Below, piece by piece: positions 2,174-14,884 of a DNA stretch of 64,000 nucleotides. The notes beneath the pieces were generated by a model that saw only the letters and a list, made by a program, of their open reading frames with translations, was not told the DNA's origin and made no database searches. Numbering within the stretch: position 1 is the stretch's first letter; each line of letters begins with the position of its first letter. The position numbers and the translations under genes were made by a program. Source of the stretch: Nitrospira sp. CR1.1. Lineage in GTDB: Bacteria; Nitrospirota; Nitrospiria; Nitrospirales; Nitrospiraceae. The stretch covers positions 1 through 64,000 of the forward strand of contig WIAF01000009.1 of the NCBI GenBank assembly GCA_014055465.1, read 5' to 3'.

Positions 2174-2665
2174 CTACCCCTGCAAACGACTCCAGAGCTT
2201 CTCGAGCGTTTTCACAAACGTTTTGCATTCGTGGTCGCTGAGGTCAGAGAACAGTTCCGCCACCTGTTCTTTGTACTCCGTGCAGCGCGGAGAGAGCTCG
2301 GTCATGACTTTGTCGGAGAGTTCGATCACGGTGGCCCGGCGATCTGTCGGATGCCGTCGCCGCACGACCAATCCGTCGTTCTCGAGCGAATCAACCAGCG
2401 CGGTGACGTTGGTCGCCGTCACGCCCAGTTCCTTCTTGAGGTCGCTCATGATTCTCGGTCCGCGCTCATGAATTGAACTCAGAATACGCAACCGCTGAGG
2501 CGACAACCCTTTTTCCACTAACAGCGATTCCGACCACCGTTGATAGGCCGGGGCGAAGCTCCACAGCAGTTCAACCAGCCGGTGCCGCGGCAACGTCGAG
2601 ATGCAGGGAGAGACGGATAACCTCTCCTTGGCTTTGATTCGGGGGGCAACCTTCATACGTTTCAT
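2174..2665 (-). CDS. MarR-family transcriptional regulator
   Basis: This is a winged-helix repressor of the MarR family, about 163 residues from the chosen start. The HTH is visible in MSDLKKELGVTATNVTALVDSLE and the wing in GLVVRRRHPTDRRATVIELS, with the typical DRR motif. Flanking helices would form the dimer interface. It is transcribed away from the RND adaptor-pump pair across an AT-rich spacer, the classic arrangement for a repressor of a divergent efflux operon and of itself. The start is uncertain: ATG codons at 2707, 2665 and 2656 are all in frame and none has a clear ribosome-binding site. The effector is unknown, probably a phenolic or other pump substrate. Confidence 0.9.
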   Translation of the reverse strand: MKRMKVAPRIKAKERLSVSPCISTLPRHRLVELLWSFAPAYQRWSESLLVEKGLSPQRLRILSSIHERGPRIMSDLKKELGVTATNVTALVDSLENDGLVVRRRHPTDRRATVIELSDKVMTELSPRCTEYKEQVAELFSDLSDHECKTFVKTLEKLWSRLQG

Positions 2666-2707
2666 CGTGCGGACACGGTACTTCAAAACGCGACAACATT
2701 CAATCAT

Positions 2708-2760
2708 AAATTATTCATAGATACATCATTCATATATTGACTATTCTTCACAGCATGCCG
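2708..2760. promoter_or_regulatory. Candidate divergent promoter/operator region
   Basis: This AT-rich spacer lies between marR and the efflux operon in otherwise GC-rich DNA. It contains the direct repeat ATTCATA at 2713-2719 and 2728-2734, spaced by 15 bases, which would sit on nearly the same helix face as a weak operator. The assignment as the MarR target is inferred from position only. Confidence 0.4.
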
Positions 2761-2847
2761 GATACTGCAGACAGGACTGATAACGAACCGTCGATGCCAT
2801 GTGGATCTGACGCCCTCGTTCACGACCACTCTTCCAACAGGTACATT

Positions 2848-4011
2848 ATGCGCAATGTCCGACATATCTCATGGCTGCTGGCAGTGCTGCTGACGGCAGC
2901 CGCTTGCAACAACGAACAGGCCAGCAGCGGCGGGCAAATGCCTCCCCCCGAGGTCGGGGTCGCGAGAGTGATCTCGAAACCGGTGCAACAATGGGACGAA
3001 TACACGGGCCGCATCAGCGCGATCGACACGGTCGAGTTACGCCCACGCGCCAGCGGCTATGTGGACCGGGTCGCTTATAAGGAAGGCCAGGATGTGAAAC
3101 AGGGCGAGTTGATGTTCCTGATCGACCCTCGTCCCTACCGCGCCGCATTGGAAAATGCCCAGGCGCAACTGGCACGCGCGCGCGTGGCGCAGCAGTTGGA
3201 GACCATCCGCAACAAGCGCGCCCAGGCCTTGATCAATGACAACGCGATCTCGCATGAAGAACTCGACTTGCGGCGCGCCGCGCAGGCGCAAAGCGCGGCG
3301 GATGTGCATGCCGCCGAGGCCGCAGTGGCCACCGCGAAGCTCAACCTCTCCTTCACCGAGGTCCGCGCTCCGGTTTCAGGACGGGCAAGCCGGGCCCTGG
3401 TGACGGTCGGCAATTTGGCCACCGCCGACGACACCCTACTGACGACGGTGGTGTCGCAAGACCCGATGTATGTCTATTTTGATGCCGACGAAAACAGCTA
3501 CCTGCGCTATAAGGAACAGGAGCGCAAAAACGAGCGCAGCGCGCAGGACAATGCCGTCCACGTCGGCCTCGCCAACGAAACCGGCTATCCGCATACTGGA
3601 AGAGTCGACTTTCTCGACACGCAGGTCAATCCGACCCTCGGAACCGTGCGCGCTCGCGCCGTGCTCCCCAATCCAGACCGCATTTTAACCCCCGGTCTCT
3701 TCGCGCGCGTGCAGTTCGTCAGCGGCCAGAAGGCCGAAGCTCTTTTGATCGACGACAAGGCCATTCTCACCGATCAGGACCGCAAATATGTCTATGCGGT
3801 CGATGAGGAAGAAAAGGCGCAACGCAAAGATGTCGTGCTGGGCGGCATGGTCGGCGGATTGCGCGTCGTGCAATCAGGCCTCACGCCGGATGACAGGATT
3901 GTCGTGGTCGGTCTGCAGAAAGTCTTTTACCCAGGCATGCCGGTCGCCCCCGCAGAGGTTCCGATGGGCAAACCATCGGCGCCACCCGCCACAGCCATGG
4001 CCGGGCAATAG
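2848..4011 (+). CDS. RND efflux periplasmic adaptor (MexA/AcrA type)
   Basis: This is the membrane-fusion protein linking the inner-membrane pump to an outer-membrane channel, about 387 residues from the chosen start. That start at 2848 gives a lipoprotein signal (MRNVRHISWLLAVLL then TAAAC); the longer frame from 2737 adds a non-signal-like leader. Visible are the first half-motif of the lipoyl domain (VELRPRASGYVDRVAYKEGQDVKQGE), an alpha hairpin rich in Ala and Gln (about residues 95-165), the second lipoyl half (LNLSFTEVRAPVSGRAS) and the beta-barrel and membrane-proximal domains. The pump gene follows after 11 bases, so the two are an operon. No outer-membrane factor is next to it; the NodT-type protein at 13.3 kb may serve. 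Confidence 0.93.
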   Translation: MRNVRHISWLLAVLLTAAACNNEQASSGGQMPPPEVGVARVISKPVQQWDEYTGRISAIDTVELRPRASGYVDRVAYKEGQDVKQGELMFLIDPRPYRAALENAQAQLARARVAQQLETIRNKRAQALINDNAISHEELDLRRAAQAQSAADVHAAEAAVATAKLNLSFTEVRAPVSGRASRALVTVGNLATADDTLLTTVVSQDPMYVYFDADENSYLRYKEQERKNERSAQDNAVHVGLANETGYPHTGRVDFLDTQVNPTLGTVRARAVLPNPDRILTPGLFARVQFVSGQKAEALLIDDKAILTDQDRKYVYAVDEEEKAQRKDVVLGGMVGGLRVVQSGLTPDDRIVVVGLQKVFYPGMPVAPAEVPMGKPSAPPATAMAGQ

Positions 4012-4022
4012 GGAGGCCGGCC

Positions 4023-7000
4023 GTGGATTTTTCCAAGTTTTTCATCGATCGGCCGATCTTCGCCGCCGTGCTGTCGATCGTCATCTTCGCCGCCGGCTTG
4101 ATCGCCATTCCTATTCTTCCGATCAGCGAGTACCCGGAAGTCGTCCCCCCCGCGGTCATCGTGCGCGCCATCTATCCTGGCGCCAACCCCAAGGTGATCG
4201 CCGAAACCGTCTCGACACCGCTGGAAGAACAGATCAACGGTGTCGAGAACATGATGTACATGAAGTCGGTCGCCGGGTCCGACGGCGTGTTGCAGATGAC
4301 CATCACCTTCCGTCCTGGTACCGACCCGGATGCCGCCCAGGTCCAGGTGCAAAACCGCGTGAGCCAGGCCTTGTCACGGCTGCCGTCGGAAGTGGTCAGT
4401 CTGGGCGTGACGACGCAGAAACAGTCGCCGACCTTTCTGGTGATGGTCCAGCTCCTATCACCAGACGGGAAATACGATGCGCTCTACCTGCGCAACTACG
4501 CCAACATCAAAATCAAGGACGAACTGGCTCGCTTGCCCGGTGTCGGCCAGGTGCAGATTTTCGGCAGCGGCGATTATGCGATGCGTATCTGGCTCAACCC
4601 GGACAAGATCGCGTCGCGCGGGATGACCGCCGGGGACGCCGTCGCCGCCGTGCGGGAGCAAAACATCCAGGTCTCGGCCGGGCAACTAGGCGCGGAACCC
4701 ATCGCGAAAGATACCGACTTTCTCATCTCCATCAATGCCCAGGGCCGCCTGCGCACCGCTCAGGAGTTCGGCAATGTCGTGCTGAAAATCGGGACCGGCG
4801 GCGAGGTCGTCCGTTTGTCCGACGTGGCGCGCATCGAACTCGGCGCCAATGACTATACGTTGCGCGGGCAGCTGGACAATCAGGATGCTCCGCCCATCGG
4901 CATCTTCCAAGCGCCCGGCGCCAACGCGCTGACCGTCCGCGATGCCGTGATCGCCAAAATGGAAGAACTCAAAACACGCTTCCCTCCCGGTCTCACCTAC
5001 CGCTCGGACTACGACACCACGGTGTTCGTACGTGATTCGATTCAGGCAGTGGTGCAGACGCTGATGGAAGCGATCCTGCTCGTCGTGCTCGTCGTGATCC
5101 TATTCCTGCAGACCTGGCGCGCCTCGATCATTCCGTTGATCGCCGTTCCGGTGTCGGTGGTCGGCACATTTGCTGCGCTGTACCTCTTCGGATTTTCGAT
5201 CAATACGCTCACCCTCTTCGGCCTCGTGCTGGCGATCGGCATCGTGGTGGATGATGCGATCGTGGTAGTGGAAAATGTGGAGCGCAACATTGAAGAAGGC
5301 CGCACGCCACTCCAGGCCGCACACCAGGCCATGCAGGAAGTCTCGGGCCCCATCGTCGCCATTGCGCTCGTCTTGTGCGCCGTGTTCGTGCCGATGGCCT
5401 TTCTGAGCGGCGTCACCGGCCAGTTCTACAAGCAGTTCGCCGTGACGATCGCCATCTCGACGGTTATTTCGGCGATCAATTCACTGACGCTTTCGCCGGC
5501 GTTGGCGGCAAAACTGCTCAAGAGCCACGGGACGCCGAAGGACGCGCTTTCGCGCTTGATCGAGCGGCTGTTCGGCTGGGTCTTCCGGCCGTTCAACCGC
5601 TTCTTCAAGGCGAGTTCCGACAGGTATCAGGGCACCGTCTCGCGCACGTTGACACATCGCGGCTCTGTCTTTGCCGTGTATGCCCTACTGTTGGTCGTTA
5701 CAGGCATGCTGTTCCAAGCGGTGCCGCGCGGCTTCATTCCCACCCAGGACAAGTTGTATCTGATGGCCGGGGTCAAGCTGCCGGAGGGCGCCTCACTCGA
5801 CCGCACGGATGCGGTCCTGCGTCAGGTCGTCGCGGTCAGTAAAACAGTGGACGGCGTCGCCCACGCTGTCGCCATGACAGGGCTGAATCCCTTGCAGTTT
5901 ACCAATACGCCGAACTACGGCCTCGCCTTCCTCATCCTGAAGCCGTTCGACGAGCGCCATCGCAGCGCCAAGGACATCAGCGAGGAGATGAATCACAAGA
6001 TCTCCGCTATTAAGGAAGGCATCACGTTCGTGTTGATGCCGCCGCCGATTCTCGGACTGGGCAACGGCGCGGGGTATGGACTCTTCGTGGAAGACCGGGC
6101 GGGATTGGGTTTCGGGGCGTTACAAAATGCCGTCGGTGCCCTGCAGGGAGCGGTCATGCAGACTCCCGGGATGGGCTACCCGATTTCCGGCTATCAGGCC
6201 AACGTGCCACAGCTCGATGCCGAGGTGGACCGCGTCAAGACCAAGACACAAGGCATTACGTTGACCGACCTCTTCGCCACGATGCAGATCTATCTCGGCT
6301 CAGCCTATGTGAACGACTTCAACCTGTTCGGCCGCACCTGGCGCGTCTATGCACAAGCCGACGGCGATTTTCGCGGGAAGGTCGAAGACATCGCCAATCT
6401 CAAAACGCGCAATGACCGCGGCGAAATGGTCCCGATCGGCTCAATGGTGAAATTCAGTCAAACGTACGGACCCGATCCTGTGCTGCGCTACAACGGGTAT
6501 CCTGCCGCCGATTTCATGGGAGAGGCCGATCCGACCAAGTTCTCGTCGGCACAGGCAATGGACACGATTCGCGACATCGCCGGAAAGGTGCTGCCGAACG
6601 GGATGACCATCGAATGGACCGATTTGAGCTTTCAGGAAGCGTCGCAAGGACGAGCGGCCCTGCTGGTATTCCCCGTGGCCATCTTATTAGCGTTCCTCGT
6701 CCTCGCTGCCCTGTATGAGTCCTGGACGCTGCCGCTGGCGGTGATCCTGATCGTGCCGATGTGCATGCTCTGCGCGCTCGCCGGCGTCAAACTCACCGGC
6801 GGTGACAACAATACCTTCGTGCAGGTCGGGCTGGTGGTGCTGATGGGATTGGCGTGCAAGAACGCCATCTTGATCGTCGAATTTGCGCGCGAGCTGGAAC
6901 TGCAGGGGAAGGGCATCGTCGAGGCGGCGCTCGAAGCCTGCCGGCTGCGTTTGCGCCCGATCGTGATGACCTCGGTCGCCTTCATCGCGGGCACGGTTCC

Positions 7001-7220
7001 ACTCGTGCTCTCTCACGGCGCCGGCGCGGAGGTACGCTCCGCCACCGGTATCACCGTCTTCGCCGGCATGATCGGCGTGACCCTGTTCGGCCTATTTCTC
7101 ACTCCGGTGTTTTATGTCGGCCTGCGCATGCTCTCGGGACGCCAGCTGATCAGGCACGATGAACCCACGACGCGCGACGTTCCGGAACAGGCGTACAGCC
7201 CTGCCAAGACTCCTCGTTGA
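4023..7220 (+). CDS. RND efflux pump, HAE1 (AcrB/MexB) family
   Basis: This is the inner-membrane proton-driven drug exporter, 1065 residues, the full length for the family. It starts at GTG after a GGGAGG ribosome-binding site. The N-terminus MDFSKFFIDRPIFAAVLS is the usual first helix. Two large periplasmic porter domains alternate with twelve membrane helices. The proton-relay residues are intact: adjacent Asp410 and Asp411 in helix 4 (GIVVDDAIVVVENVERN) and Lys946 in helix 10 (GLACKNAILIVEFA). With its adaptor directly upstream and a divergent MarR regulator, it should form an inducible tripartite efflux pump for hydrophobic compounds. The substrate cannot be read from sequence. Confidence 0.95.
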   Translation: MDFSKFFIDRPIFAAVLSIVIFAAGLIAIPILPISEYPEVVPPAVIVRAIYPGANPKVIAETVSTPLEEQINGVENMMYMKSVAGSDGVLQMTITFRPGTDPDAAQVQVQNRVSQALSRLPSEVVSLGVTTQKQSPTFLVMVQLLSPDGKYDALYLRNYANIKIKDELARLPGVGQVQIFGSGDYAMRIWLNPDKIASRGMTAGDAVAAVREQNIQVSAGQLGAEPIAKDTDFLISINAQGRLRTAQEFGNVVLKIGTGGEVVRLSDVARIELGANDYTLRGQLDNQDAPPIGIFQAPGANALTVRDAVIAKMEELKTRFPPGLTYRSDYDTTVFVRDSIQAVVQTLMEAILLVVLVVILFLQTWRASIIPLIAVPVSVVGTFAALYLFGFSINTLTLFGLVLAIGIVVDDAIVVVENVERNIEEGRTPLQAAHQAMQEVSGPIVAIALVLCAVFVPMAFLSGVTGQFYKQFAVTIAISTVISAINSLTLSPALAAKLLKSHGTPKDALSRLIERLFGWVFRPFNRFFKASSDRYQGTVSRTLTHRGSVFAVYALLLVVTGMLFQAVPRGFIPTQDKLYLMAGVKLPEGASLDRTDAVLRQVVAVSKTVDGVAHAVAMTGLNPLQFTNTPNYGLAFLILKPFDERHRSAKDISEEMNHKISAIKEGITFVLMPPPILGLGNGAGYGLFVEDRAGLGFGALQNAVGALQGAVMQTPGMGYPISGYQANVPQLDAEVDRVKTKTQGITLTDLFATMQIYLGSAYVNDFNLFGRTWRVYAQADGDFRGKVEDIANLKTRNDRGEMVPIGSMVKFSQTYGPDPVLRYNGYPAADFMGEADPTKFSSAQAMDTIRDIAGKVLPNGMTIEWTDLSFQEASQGRAALLVFPVAILLAFLVLAALYESWTLPLAVILIVPMCMLCALAGVKLTGGDNNTFVQVGLVVLMGLACKNAILIVEFARELELQGKGIVEAALEACRLRLRPIVMTSVAFIAGTVPLVLSHGAGAEVRSATGITVFAGMIGVTLFGLFLTPVFYVGLRMLSGRQLIRHDEPTTRDVPEQAYSPAKTPR

Positions 7221-7395: not shown

Positions 7396-8256
7396 TCAAC
7401 GGCTTGCGGACACCCCTGCGACCAATGGCGCAACAGGCCTGCCTCTATCCCCCGTTCCCGCACTTGGCGTCGGCTCAAATCCATATTTGAGCAACAGCTT
7501 CTGGATGCGCGGGCTCACCATGAAATCGAGAAATTCTTCCGCCGCCGCAAACGACTCGGTCCGGCAGGTCCAGACCATCGCCTGGCCAAACAACACCGGC
7601 CTCTGCGCGCCGGCCAGGTGTTCATCAATGATGCGCACATGGCCGCTGTTGATGGCATCGACTCGATAGAGAATGCCCGCATCGGCCTCGCCGCGGACAA
7701 TGACGTTCACCACATCCTCGCTGTGCCTGGCATAGATTGGTCGGAACCCATTCTTATACGCCGGGTCGAGTTTCGTAAGCGCTCGAGCCGTGATATCTCC
7801 CAACCCCGAGGTCCTGGGATCGGCAAGTGCAATGCGAGTCGCGCGATTGGGCATGGCCTCGCGGAAGGACACCGGCGTGGCGAGTGAGGTCGCCGACATG
7901 ACCAGCACCAGCGAGGTTTGCCCGTAGATTCGCGGCCTGTCACCGATTGTCAGACCTTGTTTCTGTAATTTCGTAATCTCCTCAACCGCGGCAGGCAAGA
8001 ACACGTCGATTGCCGCACCCTGCTCGATCTCTCGACGAAGCGTCTGCGAAGGCCCATACACGACCTGCACGGCCGTGCCATATTCCCGCTCGAACAGCGG
8101 AACAATTTCCTGGAAAACCGGCTTGAGGCTATACGCAGCTCCGATCGTGAGCGGTTCCGCCTGCGCCGGTGCTTCATGCATGCCAAGAGTCGTGACCATG
8201 ACCAGGAGACACCACACGGCTCCGGGTTTCCTCATCATCTGCGTCAGCATACCCAT
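7396..8256 (-). CDS. modA: Molybdate-type ABC transporter substrate-binding protein (ModA-like)
   Basis: This periplasmic oxyanion-binding protein has 286 residues. It has a signal peptide (cleavage near APAQA-EP) followed by the ModA fold: AAYSLKPVFQEIVPLFEREYG, then GPSQTLRREIEQGAAIDVFLPAA, DPRTSGLGDITARAL and GEADAGILYRVDA. The family binds molybdate or tungstate. The start at 8256 has an AAGGA sequence nine bases upstream. No modB or modC gene adjoins it, so it either partners with a permease elsewhere or serves a different anion. It is convergent with the efflux operon to the left. The symbol reflects family resemblance only. Confidence 0.8.
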   Translation of the reverse strand: MGMLTQMMRKPGAVWCLLVMVTTLGMHEAPAQAEPLTIGAAYSLKPVFQEIVPLFEREYGTAVQVVYGPSQTLRREIEQGAAIDVFLPAAVEEITKLQKQGLTIGDRPRIYGQTSLVLVMSATSLATPVSFREAMPNRATRIALADPRTSGLGDITARALTKLDPAYKNGFRPIYARHSEDVVNVIVRGEADAGILYRVDAINSGHVRIIDEHLAGAQRPVLFGQAMVWTCRTESFAAAEEFLDFMVSPRIQKLLLKYGFEPTPSAGTGDRGRPVAPLVAGVSASR

Positions 8257-8872
8257 TACGCCATCCTTTCGTTAACCTTCAGCTGCATCCCGAGCAATGT
8301 CTGCGTCCATAGTAGCTGACTGGCTCTGCCCTGCGATGAGGAACGCACGCTCTGTCCCGCAGTATGCGCAAGATCAATGCCTATCACGTGATCCGGCGCG
8401 CCCTCTACATCCCGGGAGTCAATCATCATATTTCACGCAATGTTGCCCGATCCGCAGGCATCGTTCCGACACGCTCGCCCCGGTTAAACCGCGCACCTCC
8501 GCACGTTGCGCTCCGTGCGAATTCACACACACCAGATCAACTGGCTCACATCGCCGGCATCCTGCGCCAGCAGGATGCCGCGTGAAATTCTGCCCCTGCC
8601 TCGCTCCTTCCCCTATCGTTCCCTCTTCTCAGTCCCTGCGGATAATGCGTACTGAGACAACGGCATACCTTTTGCTCCATCACTCTTGAATTCACCGGAT
8701 CGTTGGGTCACAATCCGGCGCGCTGCGACTCACACCGTCTCACTCATACACGAGCGGCCATCCCAGCGGCGAACATGCGGACCCTTTCTGAAGTCGAAAT
8801 CTGACTGAGGCTCATGAGGGATCACGTGACGCACACGGCACAGCACTTCAGGACTTGTGGGGAGAGGCGCGT
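8257..8872. other. 616-base intergenic region upstream of second RND operon
   Basis: No convincing gene is present. The short frames have no recognisable protein character. The region should hold the promoter for the second efflux operon and the one for the ModA-like gene. The one clear structure is an 11-base perfect hairpin at 8555-8580, listed separately. Confidence 0.5.
8555..8580. repeat. Perfect 11-base inverted repeat with GCCA loop
   Basis: The arms are CGGCATCCTGC and GCAGGATGCCG around a four-base loop. There is no T run, so it is not an obvious intrinsic terminator. The arms contain the GCATCCTGC/GCAGGATGC sequence also found at the tips of the repeat at 57848-57972, but in the opposite relative order. 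It may be an operator, a structured leader or a repeat remnant. Confidence 0.6.
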
Positions 8873-10372
8873 ATGAATGCGATTGTCCTCATCGCCTTGC
8901 GAAGGCCCTACACCTTCGTGGTCATGGCCATCCTCATCCTGCTGATGGGCGGACTAACGGTGATCCACATGCCCACCGACATCTTCCCGAACATCACGAT
9001 TCCCGTCACCTCCGTGGTCTGGATCTACTCCGGTCTGCTCCCGCAACAGGTGGAAGGACGCATCACGTATCTGTTCGAGCGCTTTCTGACCTCGACCGTG
9101 GAAGGCATTAAATATATCCACAGCCATTCCTATTTCGGCAGCAGCATCATCAATATTTTCCTGCAGGACGGCGTGGATGTCGGCAGAGCCGAAGCGGATA
9201 TCGTCGGCATCTCTCAAAATGTCGTGAAGGCGCTCCCTCCGGATATTTCGCCGCCCATGATCATGCGTCTCGCCCCCTCATCCATCCCGGTCGCCATGCT
9301 GAAGATCAGTTCCGACCACCTGACGCCGGCGGAACTCTACAACCTCACCTACATGCGCATCCGCCCCCTGCTCGTCACGGTCCCGGGCATCGTCCTGCCG
9401 CACCCGTACGGAGGTCAGGATATGCAGGTCATGGTCAACCTCGATCAGCAGAAACTGCTTGCCCGGCAACTGACGCCGGCGGATGTTCACGCCGTCCTCA
9501 TGAAGCAATATCTCGTGCTGCCGGCCGGCGACATCAAAATCAAGCAAACGGACTGGATCGTCCAGACAAACGCGTCCCCGGTGAAAATCGAGGACTTCAA
9601 CGAGATCCCGATCAAGCGGGAAGGGAATGCCTTCGTCTACCTGCGGGATGTGGCCACCGTGCGCCTCATGGGCCGGGTCCAACAGAACGCGGTGCTCGTG
9701 AAAGGCAAACAGACCGTCATCCTCGTCGCGATGAAAAGCACGGAGGCCTCTACGCTCGATGTCGTCGACGGCATCAAGAAAATGATTCCGCGCGCCGAGC
9801 AAATCTCTCCGAAGGGCGTCTCGATCACGCTCCTCGACGACGCCTCGACCTTCGTGAAGGATTCGATCTTCGACGTCTTGCACGAAATGCTGATGGCCGG
9901 TGCGCTGGTCGGCCTCATCGTGCTGTTGCTGCTCGGCTCCTGGCGGGCGACGGTCATTGTCTGGACCTCGATCCCACTCTCGATTCTGATCGCCGTCATC
10001 GGCCTGCATCTGCTTGAGGAGACGATCAACGTCATGACCCTGGGAGGCTTGGCCCTGGCTGTCGGCATTCTGGTCGATGACGCGACCGTCATGATCGAAA
10101 ACATCGATCGCCATATCGAAATGGGAAAACCGCTCGAACAGGCCATCATCGACGCCGCCAATCAGATCGTGGTCCCGACGCTCGTGGCAACCCTCTGCAT
10201 CGCCATCGTCTGGCTGCCGCTGTTCAAACTCGGCGGCGTCTCCGGGTACCTGTTCAAGCCGATGGCGGAAGCCATCATCATCGCCATGATCGCCTCGTTC
10301 ATTCTTTCACGCACCCTGGTACCGACCATGGCAAAATACCTGATGAAGGCGCACCATGCCGAAGCTGCCTGA
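8873..10372 (+). CDS. RND efflux permease, N-terminal half
   Basis: This holds the first six membrane helices and first porter domain of an RND permease, 499 residues. The ATG at 8873 fits the family N-terminus (MNAIVLIALRRPYTFVVMAI) and has a GGGGAGAGG sequence upstream. Helix 4 carries Asp402-Asp403 (GILVDDATVMIENIDRH). It ends in the cytoplasmic linker after helix 6 (RTLVPTMAKYLMKAHH). The second half follows in the +1 frame with a 17-base overlap, so this is either a natural split gene or one gene broken by a one-base change. The two parts together (about 1066 residues) match one normal permease. Confidence 0.88.
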   Translation: MNAIVLIALRRPYTFVVMAILILLMGGLTVIHMPTDIFPNITIPVTSVVWIYSGLLPQQVEGRITYLFERFLTSTVEGIKYIHSHSYFGSSIINIFLQDGVDVGRAEADIVGISQNVVKALPPDISPPMIMRLAPSSIPVAMLKISSDHLTPAELYNLTYMRIRPLLVTVPGIVLPHPYGGQDMQVMVNLDQQKLLARQLTPADVHAVLMKQYLVLPAGDIKIKQTDWIVQTNASPVKIEDFNEIPIKREGNAFVYLRDVATVRLMGRVQQNAVLVKGKQTVILVAMKSTEASTLDVVDGIKKMIPRAEQISPKGVSITLLDDASTFVKDSIFDVLHEMLMAGALVGLIVLLLLGSWRATVIVWTSIPLSILIAVIGLHLLEETINVMTLGGLALAVGILVDDATVMIENIDRHIEMGKPLEQAIIDAANQIVVPTLVATLCIAIVWLPLFKLGGVSGYLFKPMAEAIIIAMIASFILSRTLVPTMAKYLMKAHHAEAA

Positions 10373-12059
10373 ACCGCACGAGCCGTCCGCCGTGAACCCG
10401 GCATCGAACATCTTCGTCCGTTTTCAACAGAGGTTCGAGCGCGGATTCAACCGGTTCCGTGATCGCTACGAAGCGCTCCTCGAATGGGTGCTGGCTCACC
10501 GGCGGCTCTTCGTCGCCTCATCGCTGGCCGTCGCCATGTGCTCCCTCTCCCTGTTCTACTTTCTCGGACGGGACTATTTTCCAGAAATACGGTCAGGCGT
10601 CATTCAAATGCATCTGCGGGCGCCGCTCGGGACTCGGATCGAGGTATCCGGGCGCATTGCCACGCTGGTCTCCAACAGCATCGAAGAGTTGCTGCCCGAC
10701 AAGGTGGAACACATCGTGAGCAATTGTGGATTGCCGGTGGGCCCGCACAACCTGGCGTTCATTCCGACTCCGACCATCGGCTCTCAGGATTGTGACTTGA
10801 CGATCCTCTTGCACGACGAGAAGTCTCCGGTGTGGGACTACCGGCATATTCTCCGCAAAGGTTTGAGAGAGCGCTATCCGGGAACCGAATTCACGTTTCA
10901 GCCGTCCGATCTGACCGCCAAGATTCTCAACTTCGGCGCGCCGGCGCCGATCGATATCCAGATCAGCGGCCCGGACATGTATCCCAACTATGAATTCGCC
11001 CGTAAGCTGGTCGGCAAGTTACGGGACATTCCCGGATCGGCCGACGTGGTGATTCAGCAGACGATGCGCACGCCGACTCTCACGGTCGAAGGGAACCGCA
11101 CGTTCGGACTCGGCGTGAACAGAACCCTGAAAGATATGGCCGAAAACCTGCTCATGACGACCGCCGGCAGCCAACAGGTCGATCAAGTCTATTGGCTCGA
11201 TCCCAGCACCAGCATGTCCTACTTGATCAACGTGTATACGCCCCAGCCGCAGATTGACAGCGTCAATAGCCTCAAGACCATTCCCATCGAAGCGTCGGGT
11301 CACCCGTCGAACGACCAGGACGTGCAGCTGCTCGGCAATCTGGCCGAAATTTCAGCGGAAGGCACACCGGGAGTCATCACGCACGGCAACCTCATGCCGC
11401 TGTTCAACATTTATGTCTCCGCCGAAGGGCGCGACCTCGGGGGCGTGCTGGCGGATGTCGAACAGATCACCCGGACCATGCACGACGAATTGCCCAAGAG
11501 CGCCGCACTCGAAATCCATGGCCAGGCGGCGCTCATGCACGACGCCTACTTCGAGCTGATCTTTGGACTCATTGCCGCGGTCATGCTGGTGTATCTGCTG
11601 ATCGTCGTCAATTTCCAATCCTGGTTGGATCCCTTCATCATCATCACCGCCTTGCCCGGCGCGTTGGCCGGCATCGCGTGGTCCCTGTTCCTCACCCATA
11701 CACGACTCTCTGAACCGGCGCTCACCGGTGCCATCATGACCATGGGCACGGCCACCGCCAATTCAATCCTCGTCGTCTCCTACGCCCGCGAACGGCTTCA
11801 GGAGCACGGCAATGCCGTGCAAGCGGCGATCGAGGCGGGCACCACACGCTTTCGCCCGGTGCTCATGACGGCGTCAGCCATGATCCTCGGTATGGTGCCC
11901 ATGGCGACCGGCTATTCGACGAATGCGCCACTGGGTCGCGCCGTGATCGGCGGCCTCCTCATGGCGACCGTCTTTACCCTGTTATTCGTGCCCTGCGTCT
12001 ACGCACTGATGTACAACAGCCGATCAACAGGTCGGCAGGATGTCACCACCCATGCCTAA
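10356..12059 (+). CDS. RND efflux permease, C-terminal half
   Basis: This is the second half of the permease, 567 residues: helix 7 (LFVASSLAVAMCSLSLFYFLG), porter domain PN2/PC2 and helices 8-12. Its own ATG at 10356 lies inside the end of the first half. The first 20 residues (EPHEPSAVNPASNIFVRFQQRFERGF) look like the ordinary inter-half linker. In helix 10 the residues are GTATANSILVVSYA; the Lys that takes part in the AcrB proton relay is Ala here. I recall this substitution in a subfamily of RND pumps, so it need not mean inactivity. It overlaps the adaptor gene downstream. Confidence 0.88.
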   Translation: MPKLPEPHEPSAVNPASNIFVRFQQRFERGFNRFRDRYEALLEWVLAHRRLFVASSLAVAMCSLSLFYFLGRDYFPEIRSGVIQMHLRAPLGTRIEVSGRIATLVSNSIEELLPDKVEHIVSNCGLPVGPHNLAFIPTPTIGSQDCDLTILLHDEKSPVWDYRHILRKGLRERYPGTEFTFQPSDLTAKILNFGAPAPIDIQISGPDMYPNYEFARKLVGKLRDIPGSADVVIQQTMRTPTLTVEGNRTFGLGVNRTLKDMAENLLMTTAGSQQVDQVYWLDPSTSMSYLINVYTPQPQIDSVNSLKTIPIEASGHPSNDQDVQLLGNLAEISAEGTPGVITHGNLMPLFNIYVSAEGRDLGGVLADVEQITRTMHDELPKSAALEIHGQAALMHDAYFELIFGLIAAVMLVYLLIVVNFQSWLDPFIIITALPGALAGIAWSLFLTHTRLSEPALTGAIMTMGTATANSILVVSYARERLQEHGNAVQAAIEAGTTRFRPVLMTASAMILGMVPMATGYSTNAPLGRAVIGGLLMATVFTLLFVPCVYALMYNSRSTGRQDVTTHA

Positions 12060-13239
12060 CACCTCTGGTCGAACACTCACGATCATCACCCTGATCGGGT
12101 TGTGCGGACTGTACCTTGGCTATCGGGTCTATACCAGCAAGAGCGACGCCGCGTTGCTGCGCGAAAAGACGCTCGAAGAATCGGTTTCCACGGTCTCGAT
12201 CGTCCATCCCACCCCGACCGCGGCAACCGAAACCATCACGCTCCCCGGCAATGTGCAGGCCTGGTTTCAAGCACCGATCTACGCGCAAGTCTCGGGATAT
12301 GTGAAGATGTGGTACAAGGACTACGGCGCGCTTGTGAAGAAAGGCGAAGTCCTTGCGGAAATCAACGCGCCGGCCCTCGACGCCCAATATGAACAGTCCA
12401 GAGCGGATCTTGCGGCCGAGAAGGCGAAATATGCGTTGGCCGACTTGACCGCCAAACGCTGGACGGCGCTCAGGAAAAACCATGCGGTCTCCGAGCAATC
12501 AATCTCGGTCCAGGAAGCCAACGCAAAAGCCGAGCTGGCCAGGGTCCGGGCCGCGGAGCAGAACGTCCGCAACTACGAAGCCTTGATCCGGTTTAAAACC
12601 ATCGTCGCACCCTATGACGGCGTCGTCACCGTTCGCAACATCAACGTCGGCGACTACGTCAATAAGGAAGGCACGATCAGCGCGCCCGGCTCGATCAGCA
12701 ATCTGTTCACCGTCGCCGACGTCAGCATGTTGCGGCTGTTCGTCTCGGTGCCGGAGGCGTTCGGTCCCTTTCTTCAGCCCGGCCTGACCGCTGACGTGAC
12801 CGTGCCGCAATTACCCGGCCGCCATTTCACGGCTAAATTCCTGACCGTCGCCCGTGGATTCGACACCAAAACACGGACGGCCGTGACCGTCTTCACCATC
12901 GACAACGAAGACCGGGCCCTCTGGCCCGGCTCGTACGCCAAGGTAGAAATCACCGCGCCGGTCGACCGGAAAGTCCATACGATTCCTTCGACCGCACTGG
13001 TCTTCCAGGAGCACGGCACGCAAGTCGCTGTCGTGACCGAAGACAGCCACGTGCACTTACAGCCGATTACGGTCAGTCGCTTGCTAGATAGTGCCGTCGA
13101 AGTCGAGGCAGGAATCTCCGCGGGCGACCGCATCGTGAACAACCCCAGCGCCGCATTACTGGAGGGCGACAAGGTTCGAGTCGTCACGCCGGCGCCCGGC
13201 TATGACCTGATCAGCACGGACGGACCTGCCAAGGAATGA
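12052..13239 (+). CDS. RND efflux periplasmic adaptor
   Basis: This membrane-fusion protein has about 395 residues, with an uncleaved N-terminal anchor (TIITLIGLCGLYLGYRVY). The lipoyl halves are visible (PIYAQVSGYVKMWYKDYGALVKKGE and FKTIVAPYDGVVTVRNINVGDYV), with an Ala-rich alpha hairpin between them. The barrel domain follows (NLFTVADVSMLRLFVSVPE). The ATG at 12052 overlaps the permease stop by eight bases; an ATG at 12040 is also possible. Tight coupling to the two permease halves and the downstream outer-membrane factor makes this a full tripartite system. Confidence 0.92.
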   Translation: MPNTSGRTLTIITLIGLCGLYLGYRVYTSKSDAALLREKTLEESVSTVSIVHPTPTAATETITLPGNVQAWFQAPIYAQVSGYVKMWYKDYGALVKKGEVLAEINAPALDAQYEQSRADLAAEKAKYALADLTAKRWTALRKNHAVSEQSISVQEANAKAELARVRAAEQNVRNYEALIRFKTIVAPYDGVVTVRNINVGDYVNKEGTISAPGSISNLFTVADVSMLRLFVSVPEAFGPFLQPGLTADVTVPQLPGRHFTAKFLTVARGFDTKTRTAVTVFTIDNEDRALWPGSYAKVEITAPVDRKVHTIPSTALVFQEHGTQVAVVTEDSHVHLQPITVSRLLDSAVEVEAGISAGDRIVNNPSAALLEGDKVRVVTPAPGYDLISTDGPAKE

Positions 13240-13270: not shown

Positions 13271-14884
13271 ATGACTTGCACTCGCAGACAAAGCGCCGGG
13301 CGAGCGCCGCTTCTCTCGCCGACGTCCAGGCGAGTCGGAGTGGTCCTGCTGACGCTCGTCCTGACGGGCTGCTCCTCCTTTCCGGCTGCCGATCTGTCGC
13401 CCACCTATGAGCCGACCCAGTTCGTGGTGCCCGCCTCGTGGCATGGGTCGAGCCCCTTTGTGGAAGCCAAGCCGTCGGACGGCGAACTTCGTTCGGAATG
13501 GTGGACGGTGTATGACGACCCCGTACTCAACATGCTCGAAGCACAGGCCATGGAGGCCAACCCCGATTTGCAGGCGGCCGCCGAGCGGTTCGTGCAGGCG
13601 CGTGATGTGATGATGAAGGCGCGATCACAATACCTTCCCCGCATCGGCCTCGGGTTCGACGCCTCAGGCAACCGGGAATCCATCGAGCACCTGTTCAGGC
13701 CACCCGACGTTCCCCGGTATGAATCGACCGTCGCCGCCGGCGGCATCGCCTCCTGGGAGCCGGACTTTTGGTCGGCTCTGCGCAATGCCACGCGCATCGA
13801 AGTCTATCGCGCCGAAGAACGCGCCGCCGACTACGGACTCGCGCGTCTCAGTTTGCAAGCCGAACTCGCCGCCAACTATTTCCTGCTACGCGGCTACGAT
13901 GCGCAAGCCGCGATCTATTCTCAATCGATCGACCTGTATCGGGAATCGCTGGACATCGTGAACGCCCAGTTCGCGGGGGCAATCGCCTCGGCGCTGGATG
14001 TCGCCCGGGTTGAATCGCTTCTGTTCAGCACAGAAACGAAGTACGCGCAGATCCAGGGCCATCGGCAGGTGACCGAACAGGCTATCGCCATCCTGCTCAA
14101 CCGCGCCCCCGCCGGATTCACCATCGAGCCAATCACGGAACTGCGAGTGGCCGCGTTTAAAGTCCCGCAGACTATTCCCTCCACCCTGCTGGAGCGCCGA
14201 CCGGACATTGCCGGGATGGAACGCAAGATGGCGCAAGCCAACCGCGCGATCGGGATTGCCCGCGCCGCGTTTTATCCCAACGTCTCGTTCCGGGCCGGAG
14301 GCGGGTTTGAGGATGCCGGGATCAGCTTGTTCAGCCTCGCCAACAGTTTCTTTTCCTACGGCTCATCCGTCGCACTGCCGTTATTTCAAGGCGGGTATCG
14401 CCGCGCGCAATTGCAACAGGCCTGGTCGGCCTACCGCGAGACGGAAGACCGCTATCGTTCGACCGTCCTCAACGCGTTTCGAGAGGTCGAAAACAATCTA
14501 AGTCTGACCAATCGTCTGTCGGAGGCAGCCGGCAAGCAGGATGCCGCCGTTGGCGCCACCCTCCATGCACAAGAGCTGACCATGGAACTGTATCTTGGCG
14601 GCTTAGCGTCCAGCCTGGAACTCATTTATGCGCAGGTGGGCACACTCATCGCACGCATCGAGTCTGTACAGATCAAAGCCGAACTGCTCAAGACGTCGGT
14701 GATGCTCATCCGGGCGCTCGGCGGAGGGTGGAACCGTCGTCAATTGCCGAACGACGAAGAGATTCAGCCGTTCGGGACCTTCCAATACGTGAATCTCGAT
14801 AAACCACCTTCGGTCCGCGGCATCGATGTAAACGCGGCCGACAATTCGAAGCACAATGACCTGACCAGACCGGCCGTTCGGTAA
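13271..14884 (+). CDS. Outer-membrane efflux lipoprotein, NodT/OprM type
   Basis: This is a 537-residue TolC-like channel subunit. A lipoprotein signal ends with LTGC (Cys34), then WWTVYDDPVLNMLEAQAMEANPDL opens the family repeat. Each half carries the long coiled helices typical of TolC-like trimers, including ERRPDIAGMERKMAQANRAIGIARAAFYP and an equatorial segment. It is the last gene of the second RND operon, 31 bases after the adaptor. It would provide the outer-membrane exit and may also serve the MarR-linked pump, which lacks one. The C-terminal 40 residues are low in recognisable structure. Confidence 0.93.
   Translation: MTCTRRQSAGRAPLLSPTSRRVGVVLLTLVLTGCSSFPAADLSPTYEPTQFVVPASWHGSSPFVEAKPSDGELRSEWWTVYDDPVLNMLEAQAMEANPDLQAAAERFVQARDVMMKARSQYLPRIGLGFDASGNRESIEHLFRPPDVPRYESTVAAGGIASWEPDFWSALRNATRIEVYRAEERAADYGLARLSLQAELAANYFLLRGYDAQAAIYSQSIDLYRESLDIVNAQFAGAIASALDVARVESLLFSTETKYAQIQGHRQVTEQAIAILLNRAPAGFTIEPITELRVAAFKVPQTIPSTLLERRPDIAGMERKMAQANRAIGIARAAFYPNVSFRAGGGFEDAGISLFSLANSFFSYGSSVALPLFQGGYRRAQLQQAWSAYRETEDRYRSTVLNAFREVENNLSLTNRLSEAAGKQDAAVGATLHAQELTMELYLGGLASSLELIYAQVGTLIARIESVQIKAELLKTSVMLIRALGGGWNRRQLPNDEEIQPFGTFQYVNLDKPPSVRGIDVNAADNSKHNDLTRPAVR

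Follow-up and report, generated by a model that had tools for sequence, protein, structure and literature searches.

The window, a 64,000-nucleotide stretch of the Nitrospira sp. CR1.1 genome (positions 1 to 64,000 of contig WIAF01000009.1), carries an RND permease that is encoded by two overlapping genes. The first (8873..10372, +) specifies an N-half of 499 residues, counted from the ATG at 8873 (the ORF list offers an alternative TTG start at 8855), with TM1-TM6 and the first periplasmic loop. The second (10356..12059, +) specifies a 567-residue C-half with the Iα helix, TM7-TM12 and the second periplasmic loop. The genes share 17 bp (10356..10372, +), the C-half frame being +1 relative to that of the N-half. 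On the 1021-position Pfam ACR_tran profile, the N-half occupies 4-496 (377 bits) and the C-half 500-1020 (243 bits); the profile is thus fully covered by the two halves, which together form a complete permease, with its cut between TM6 and TM7 and its two genes overlapping in different frames, as the original prediction had held. Scored alone against whole-permease NCBIfam models of the named HAE1 subfamilies, the N-half reaches at best 324.8 (cut-off 1250) and the C-half 197.3 (cut-off 701.45). The AlphaFold model of the N-half (pLDDT 77.6) matches CusA and AcrB chains in Foldseek with a TMq of about 0.8, identity to solved pumps being about 25% in this fold comparison. In the poor C-half model (mean pLDDT 53.8), a low-confidence tail of residues 1-16 precedes a predicted amphipathic helix at residues 19-47 (10410..10496, +), taken as Iα, and a next helix at 49-73, a low-confidence order that would place the cut just before the Iα helix linking TM6 and TM7. 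Genes for a periplasmic adaptor (RND_mfp; 12040..13239, +; 219.8 bits against a cut-off of 94.9), which shares 20 bp with the C-half gene, and for an outer-membrane channel of the NodT family (13271..14884, +; outer_NodT 297.2 against 210.05) complete a tripartite operon.

The surroundings hold other transport genes. Within 2174-7220, a MarR regulator is divergent from an OqxAB-like pair, an intact OqxB-like permease and its adaptor (2737-7220) lying upstream of the split pump; in several relatives, the aligned stretches of this permease show 93-98% identity. Alone between the two RND operons stands a gene (7396-8256, -) for a ModA-like molybdate-binding protein, and an integrase-core (rve/HTH_21) gene (443-994, -) is probably an insertion-sequence remnant.

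The start of the second gene is kept with striking regularity. Of 45 distinct split junctions, 42 have an ATG of the C-half frame precisely 17 nt upstream of where the N-half stop ends; the ATG is displaced in the other three (L052, where it takes a TAATG arrangement, L082 and L171). The AT of this ATG falls in a CAT codon at 41 of the 45, against 196 CAT and 200 CAC among the other histidine codons of the N genes, these being counts over related rows and not a probability. The N-half is 499 residues long in most split relatives, and two loci with insertions in its tail (L045 and L079) nonetheless retain the Shine-Dalgarno (SD)-like site, the ATG and the 17-bp overlap. A GAAGG/AAAGG/GAGG-like site precedes the C-half ATG in most relatives. 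That of the window, GAAGG (10345..10349, +), lies 6 nt 5′ of the ATG and is weak taken alone, since 30% of internal-ATG controls match its predicted anti-SD pairing of -3.5 kcal/mol. Across 33 junctions the mean is -4.4 kcal/mol, compared with -2.1 for 1,869 internal ATGs, a signal that is statistically weak; the 33-junction table includes a wrong C match (L076), a locus broken by a run of N (L086) and one taken at the first of two ATGs (L049), and the 45-junction count is the cleaner one. No homopolymer lies at the junction, as had been noted at the outset, the nearest run being AAAA at 10333-10336, about 20 nt upstream and inside the N-half.

Several of these features could also serve programmed +1 frameshifting at the overlap, which would produce a single full-length permease and was one of the readings originally put forward. 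The C frame is indeed +1 to the N frame, both are open across about 26 nt (10347-10372), the N-half stop is TGA in 42 of the 45 junctions, and the overlap is near constant in length. However, a shift-prone site is not kept: the last sense codon of the N-half is of eight kinds in 33 rows (GCA 18, GCC 4, GTT 3, CCA 2, GCT 2, ACA 2, CAG 1, CCG 1). The TAATG arrangement and the two other displaced starts likewise speak against frameshifting, as do the first ~18 residues of the C-half, which vary as in a free N-terminus, and the extra N-half that some genomes encode by itself. The kept ATG with its SD-like GAAGG fits independent initiation better, and programmed frameshifting is accordingly judged improbable, although shifts at a low level may occur.

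In a scan of named genomes, the best matches belonged to Nitrospira and other Nitrospirales, including N. moscoviensis NSP M-1 (L072), whose permease is split; more distant relatives in Methylococcus, Nitrosomonadaceae and Methylocystaceae were fused. Across 61 genomes, that of the window and those of 60 relatives, homologues close to the C-half (78-84% identity) lie mostly in open frames of only about 565-576 residues, so that those relatives are split too. At the level of the order, 81 of 235 genomes matched at E<=1e-150, and in 50 of them by hand count, a second family included, the open frame of the C-half measures 564-598 residues. Whether relatives carry the gene split or whole, a check proposed from the start, can be answered for 100 distinct loci with both N and C segments: the gene is split in 44 and fused in 56. 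One clade of 49 rows (SH-aLRT 95) takes in every split locus together with five fused ones, and every relative outside it is fused; an earlier tree of 88 loci, 33 of them split, had four fused loci within the clade (L057, L077, L078 and L084). To account for the split and fused labels, the tree needs four changes, three or more of them on well-supported branches. Because the tree came from a quick search without bootstraps and was midpoint-rooted, one split followed by later re-fusions is the most economical history without being the only one possible. The five fused loci within the clade indicate that the cut can be undone and is dispensable. On the simplest reading of these sequences, the split would be a stable, ancient arrangement in the nitrite-oxidising Nitrospira that goes back to one cut in a Nitrospirales ancestor.

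Both halves are under selection. In eight split pairs, the N-half has dN of 0.010-0.062 and dS of 0.27-0.73 (dN/dS 0.02-0.14) and the C-half dN of 0.024-0.127 and dS of 0.33-0.90 (dN/dS 0.06-0.16), low ratios that point to purifying selection on each. The split is real and old, and very probably functional. A recent mutation, one of the original suggestions, is contradicted by the conservation, the kept start codon and this selection.

It might still be that the halves act separately, for example as N-half homo-oligomers, without pairing, a reading to which the nine genomes that duplicate the N-half without the C-half would lend themselves. Yet N-half always accompanies C-half at the locus and vice versa throughout the 61 genomes, contig breaks such as that in G010 excepted, and with only fused relatives outside the clade this reading is very unlikely. 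Least credible of all is an artefact of sequencing or assembly, or else a decayed pseudogene, which has parallels in NolGHI, named as three and described in a passage of one review as “coding for a single gene” (PMC8277102), and in a plasmid relative (L211) that resembles a simple frameshift, but which is opposed by the low dN/dS of both halves and by the identical junction in independent assemblies, single-contig genomes such as G001, G004 and G009 among them; the early judgement that a simple sequencing slip was less likely is borne out by the recurrence of the same 17-bp-overlap split in dozens of genomes. The plasmid relative, from Cupriavidus campinensis (NZ_CP043441.1), is a 44-50% identical permease whose frames overlap by 465 bp across the TM6-TM7 linker, with no start codon at the junction, and looks like a single-strain frameshift. 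Another broken RND permease occurs in the window's own genome (L203 and L209, G000:C22:2409-5472), which around position 850 of the profile breaks into two frames, 996 and 211 residues long; it may be a plain frameshift.

The locus is thus best read as a genuine two-gene RND permease, whose coupled cistrons would give two polypeptides that pair into one normal pump protomer, a reading to which we assign a probability of roughly 0.87. The real split pump that had been among the initial possibilities is upheld by conservation over Nitrospiraceae and a second family, by the start kept in 42 of 45 junctions and by purifying selection on both halves. In outline, a break, most simply a single one, would have arisen in a fused ancestral gene of a Nitrospirales ancestor, within the cytoplasmic TM6-Iα linker, and the two cistrons would have stayed translationally coupled ever since through the GAAGG inside the first gene's end, the ATG and the 17-bp overlap. 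The two polypeptides, with six TM helices each, would insert into the membrane separately, and N-half and C-half would then pair to form one 12-TM protomer of the usual trimer, served by the adaptor and channel encoded downstream. As far as sequence can tell, two polypeptides assembling into a normal pump are the likely product.

A precedent for such a division exists in the laboratory. Eda, Yoneyama and Nakae reportedly divided MexB artificially into two halves in 2003. The split pump resembles such halves in being an RND permease made as two polypeptides and, judging from the low-confidence model and the profile boundary at 496/500, in being cut at the N-terminal end of Iα. It differs in being natural, conserved and encoded by overlapping genes, in having tandem N-halves in some genomes, and in lacking the TM10 lysine, whereas the MexB halves are a laboratory construct. 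SecD and SecF, RND-superfamily export proteins that occur naturally as two genes or one, differ in serving protein translocation and in belonging to another subfamily. Passages of a paper from 2014 state that MexB remains functional when divided artificially at the N-terminal end of Iα, and that Iα moves with the second repeat (PMC4359379). Since the cut sites match, the natural split would reproduce a construct known to be workable. No natural split drug-type RND permease was found in the literature searched, a result bound to the collection and terms used. The split pump is a natural new variant on a known pump type: it shares with HAE1 permeases (AcrB, MexB, MdtB and OqxB) the ACR_tran fold, the TM4 aspartate pair and an operon with adaptor and channel, and differs from them in consisting of two genes, in having a TM6 arginine and no TM10 lysine, and in that each half, when scored by itself, falls below every NCBIfam cut-off.

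The proton relay of the pump departs from the textbook arrangement. Passages of the review describe a relay of D407, D408 and K940, in which K940 bridges the two repeats (PMC8277102). The N-half of the window retains the TM4 proton-relay aspartates as D402 and D403 (10076..10081, +), equated with AcrB D407/D408 through the DD motif. The basic residue at the K940 position is absent, A468 in TM10 of the C-half (11757..11759, +) taking its place. The original observation that the second half lacks the helix-10 lysine of AcrB therefore stands, but not as a peculiarity of the split, for alanine occupies this position in 100 of 100 distinct C segments, split and fused. A tie between lysine loss and the split is ruled out, since fused relatives also lack the lysine. 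A base is found instead in TM6 of the N-half, at R480 (10310..10312, +), and it covaries with D403. Among 108 distinct TM4-TM6 segments, positions 403 and 480 (with D402) read DD/R in 71, DN/Y in 22, DN/F in 12 and DD/F in one, the recombinant second N-half of L165, two being unreadable. On a tree of 112 rows built without columns 403 and 480, position 403 changes 10 times and position 480 nine times; in seven independent well-supported pairs the two changed in the same direction 6.9 times on average and never in the opposite one (median p 0.016).

The same charge pattern extends across the window's genome, whose 20 distinct RND permeases were surveyed on both strands, the other permeases being aligned pairwise at 24-36% identity. 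Nine have two TM4 aspartates, and each of these has exactly one base at TM10 or TM6: a TM10 lysine in six (L187-L191 and L193), a TM10 arginine in one (L204), and a TM6 arginine in L200 and the window pump. The eleven with one TM4 aspartate have a base at neither site. Eight distant plasmid relatives were examined, from 25 listed of 60 records, and comprise six DD/R, one Asp-Glu/Arg and one DD/Tyr, with TM10 alanine in all eight; the fused Burkholderiaceae plasmid relatives L215 and L217 are DD/R. Exceptions to the rule are a Methylosinus permease (L213) with DD and Tyr480 and no base in TM10, the Asp-Glu-Arg of L214, and the DD with Phe480 of the second N-half of L165. From this pattern we infer that the TM6 arginine replaces the TM10 lysine in the split pump's family, split and fused members alike, an exchange that would place the whole charge triad in the N-half. 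Proton coupling would then run through D402 and D403, balanced by R480 in place of the TM10 lysine. Counted from a conserved proline, five residues separate R480 from the site that aligns with AcrB S481, a residue said in a passage of the MexB paper to contact D408 (PMC4359379), and this proximity makes a direct contact of R480 with D403 plausible. A literature search by title and abstract found no paper on a TM6 arginine in an RND relay. A Burkholderia RND cluster of “uncertain function” has HAE1 TM4 residues and is missing K940, as the Nitrospira pump does, and differs in that neither a split nor a TM6 arginine is reported in the parts of that source consulted (PMC2891726).

In some Nitrospira genomes the N-half has been duplicated on its own. 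Two N-halves stand in tandem on the same strand in nine of 175 family genomes, 73 of which have a match at E<=1e-150: the single-contig genomes G001, G007 and G143, and G030, G078, G131, G134, G135 and G136. A tenth case (L086, G156) has the start of its second N-half interrupted by assembly Ns. The retrieved loci confirm an N-N-C order with one C-half, followed by the adaptor where the contig extends that far. In five spacers (L166, L067, L168, L165 and L073), the opening ~20 codons of a C-half come between the first N-half (N1) and the start of the next one (N2), a leftover that would be the footprint of tandem duplication. By eye, the remnant in these spacers yields a frame some 28-29 codons long, overlapping N1 at the latter's end and terminating in an ATGA that includes the start of N2; this frame was possibly kept for translational coupling. 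A further pump copy in one of these genomes (L186, G135:C4) is decayed, its N-half lying in two frames and its C-half and adaptor being truncated.

The tandem copies are mosaics of near-identical and divergent stretches. In G078, G007 and G001, N1 and N2 share 98-100% identity over codons 361-495 but just 83-93% over codons 121-240. The converse holds in G135, G136 and G030, where codons 61-300 are 99-100% identical and codons 361-495 92-96%; G143 is like these three, with a porter identity of 92-98%. The copies are partly homogenised in G134 and almost wholly, N-terminus excepted, in G131. In G135, G136, G143 and G030, N1 has Asp402-Asp403 with Arg480 and N2 has Asp402-Asn403 with Phe480. The N2 relay segments of G135, G136, G143 and their kin group together (SH-aLRT 96), and the porter segments group with the N1 of the same genome, a disagreement between trees that gene conversion predicts. 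G030 carries the same residues, with a relay segment placed elsewhere in the tree, which suggests, at modest support, a separate origin of its N2 relay. That the N2 copies are simply dead through Asn403 is ruled out, as Asn403 occurs in 34 of the 108 segments, many of them from ordinary fused permeases.

These patterns invite a more tentative proposal, which we consider possible and yet doubtful: that the cut freed the N-half for solo copying and retuning, giving mixed trimers, and that a pair of TM4 aspartates requires one positive partner and no more, from either TM10 or TM6. Gene conversion would hold the N1 and N2 porters alike in G135, G136, G143 and G030, with the relay segment staying different. 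If so, protomers of these four genomes would take up differing proton numbers per cycle within mixed trimers, and in G001, G007 and G078, with the same relay and a different porter, mixing would instead concern the substrate range. The MdtB/MdtC heterotrimer offers a likeness, as described in passages of its source (PMC12802153): an operon with two versions of a permease part that in the tandem genomes, too, possibly mix in one trimer. The difference is that MdtB/MdtC doubles whole permeases, whereas the tandem genomes double the N-half only.

What was not to be expected of a split permease is this apparent duplication and retuning of a free-standing N-half in some Nitrospira, together with the charge rule. 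A natural, long-lived two-gene RND permease would mean that evolution, and not just a laboratory construct, can do without the covalent link between the transmembrane repeats. The split pump would equally be a naturally occurring case where one repeat is free to change and the other is kept. The alternative of TM6 arginine and TM10 lysine is a possible explanation for RND pumps without K940, which were earlier left with an uncertain function. Tandem N-halves, finally, would permit direct tests of trimers that mix protomers of different proton stoichiometry.
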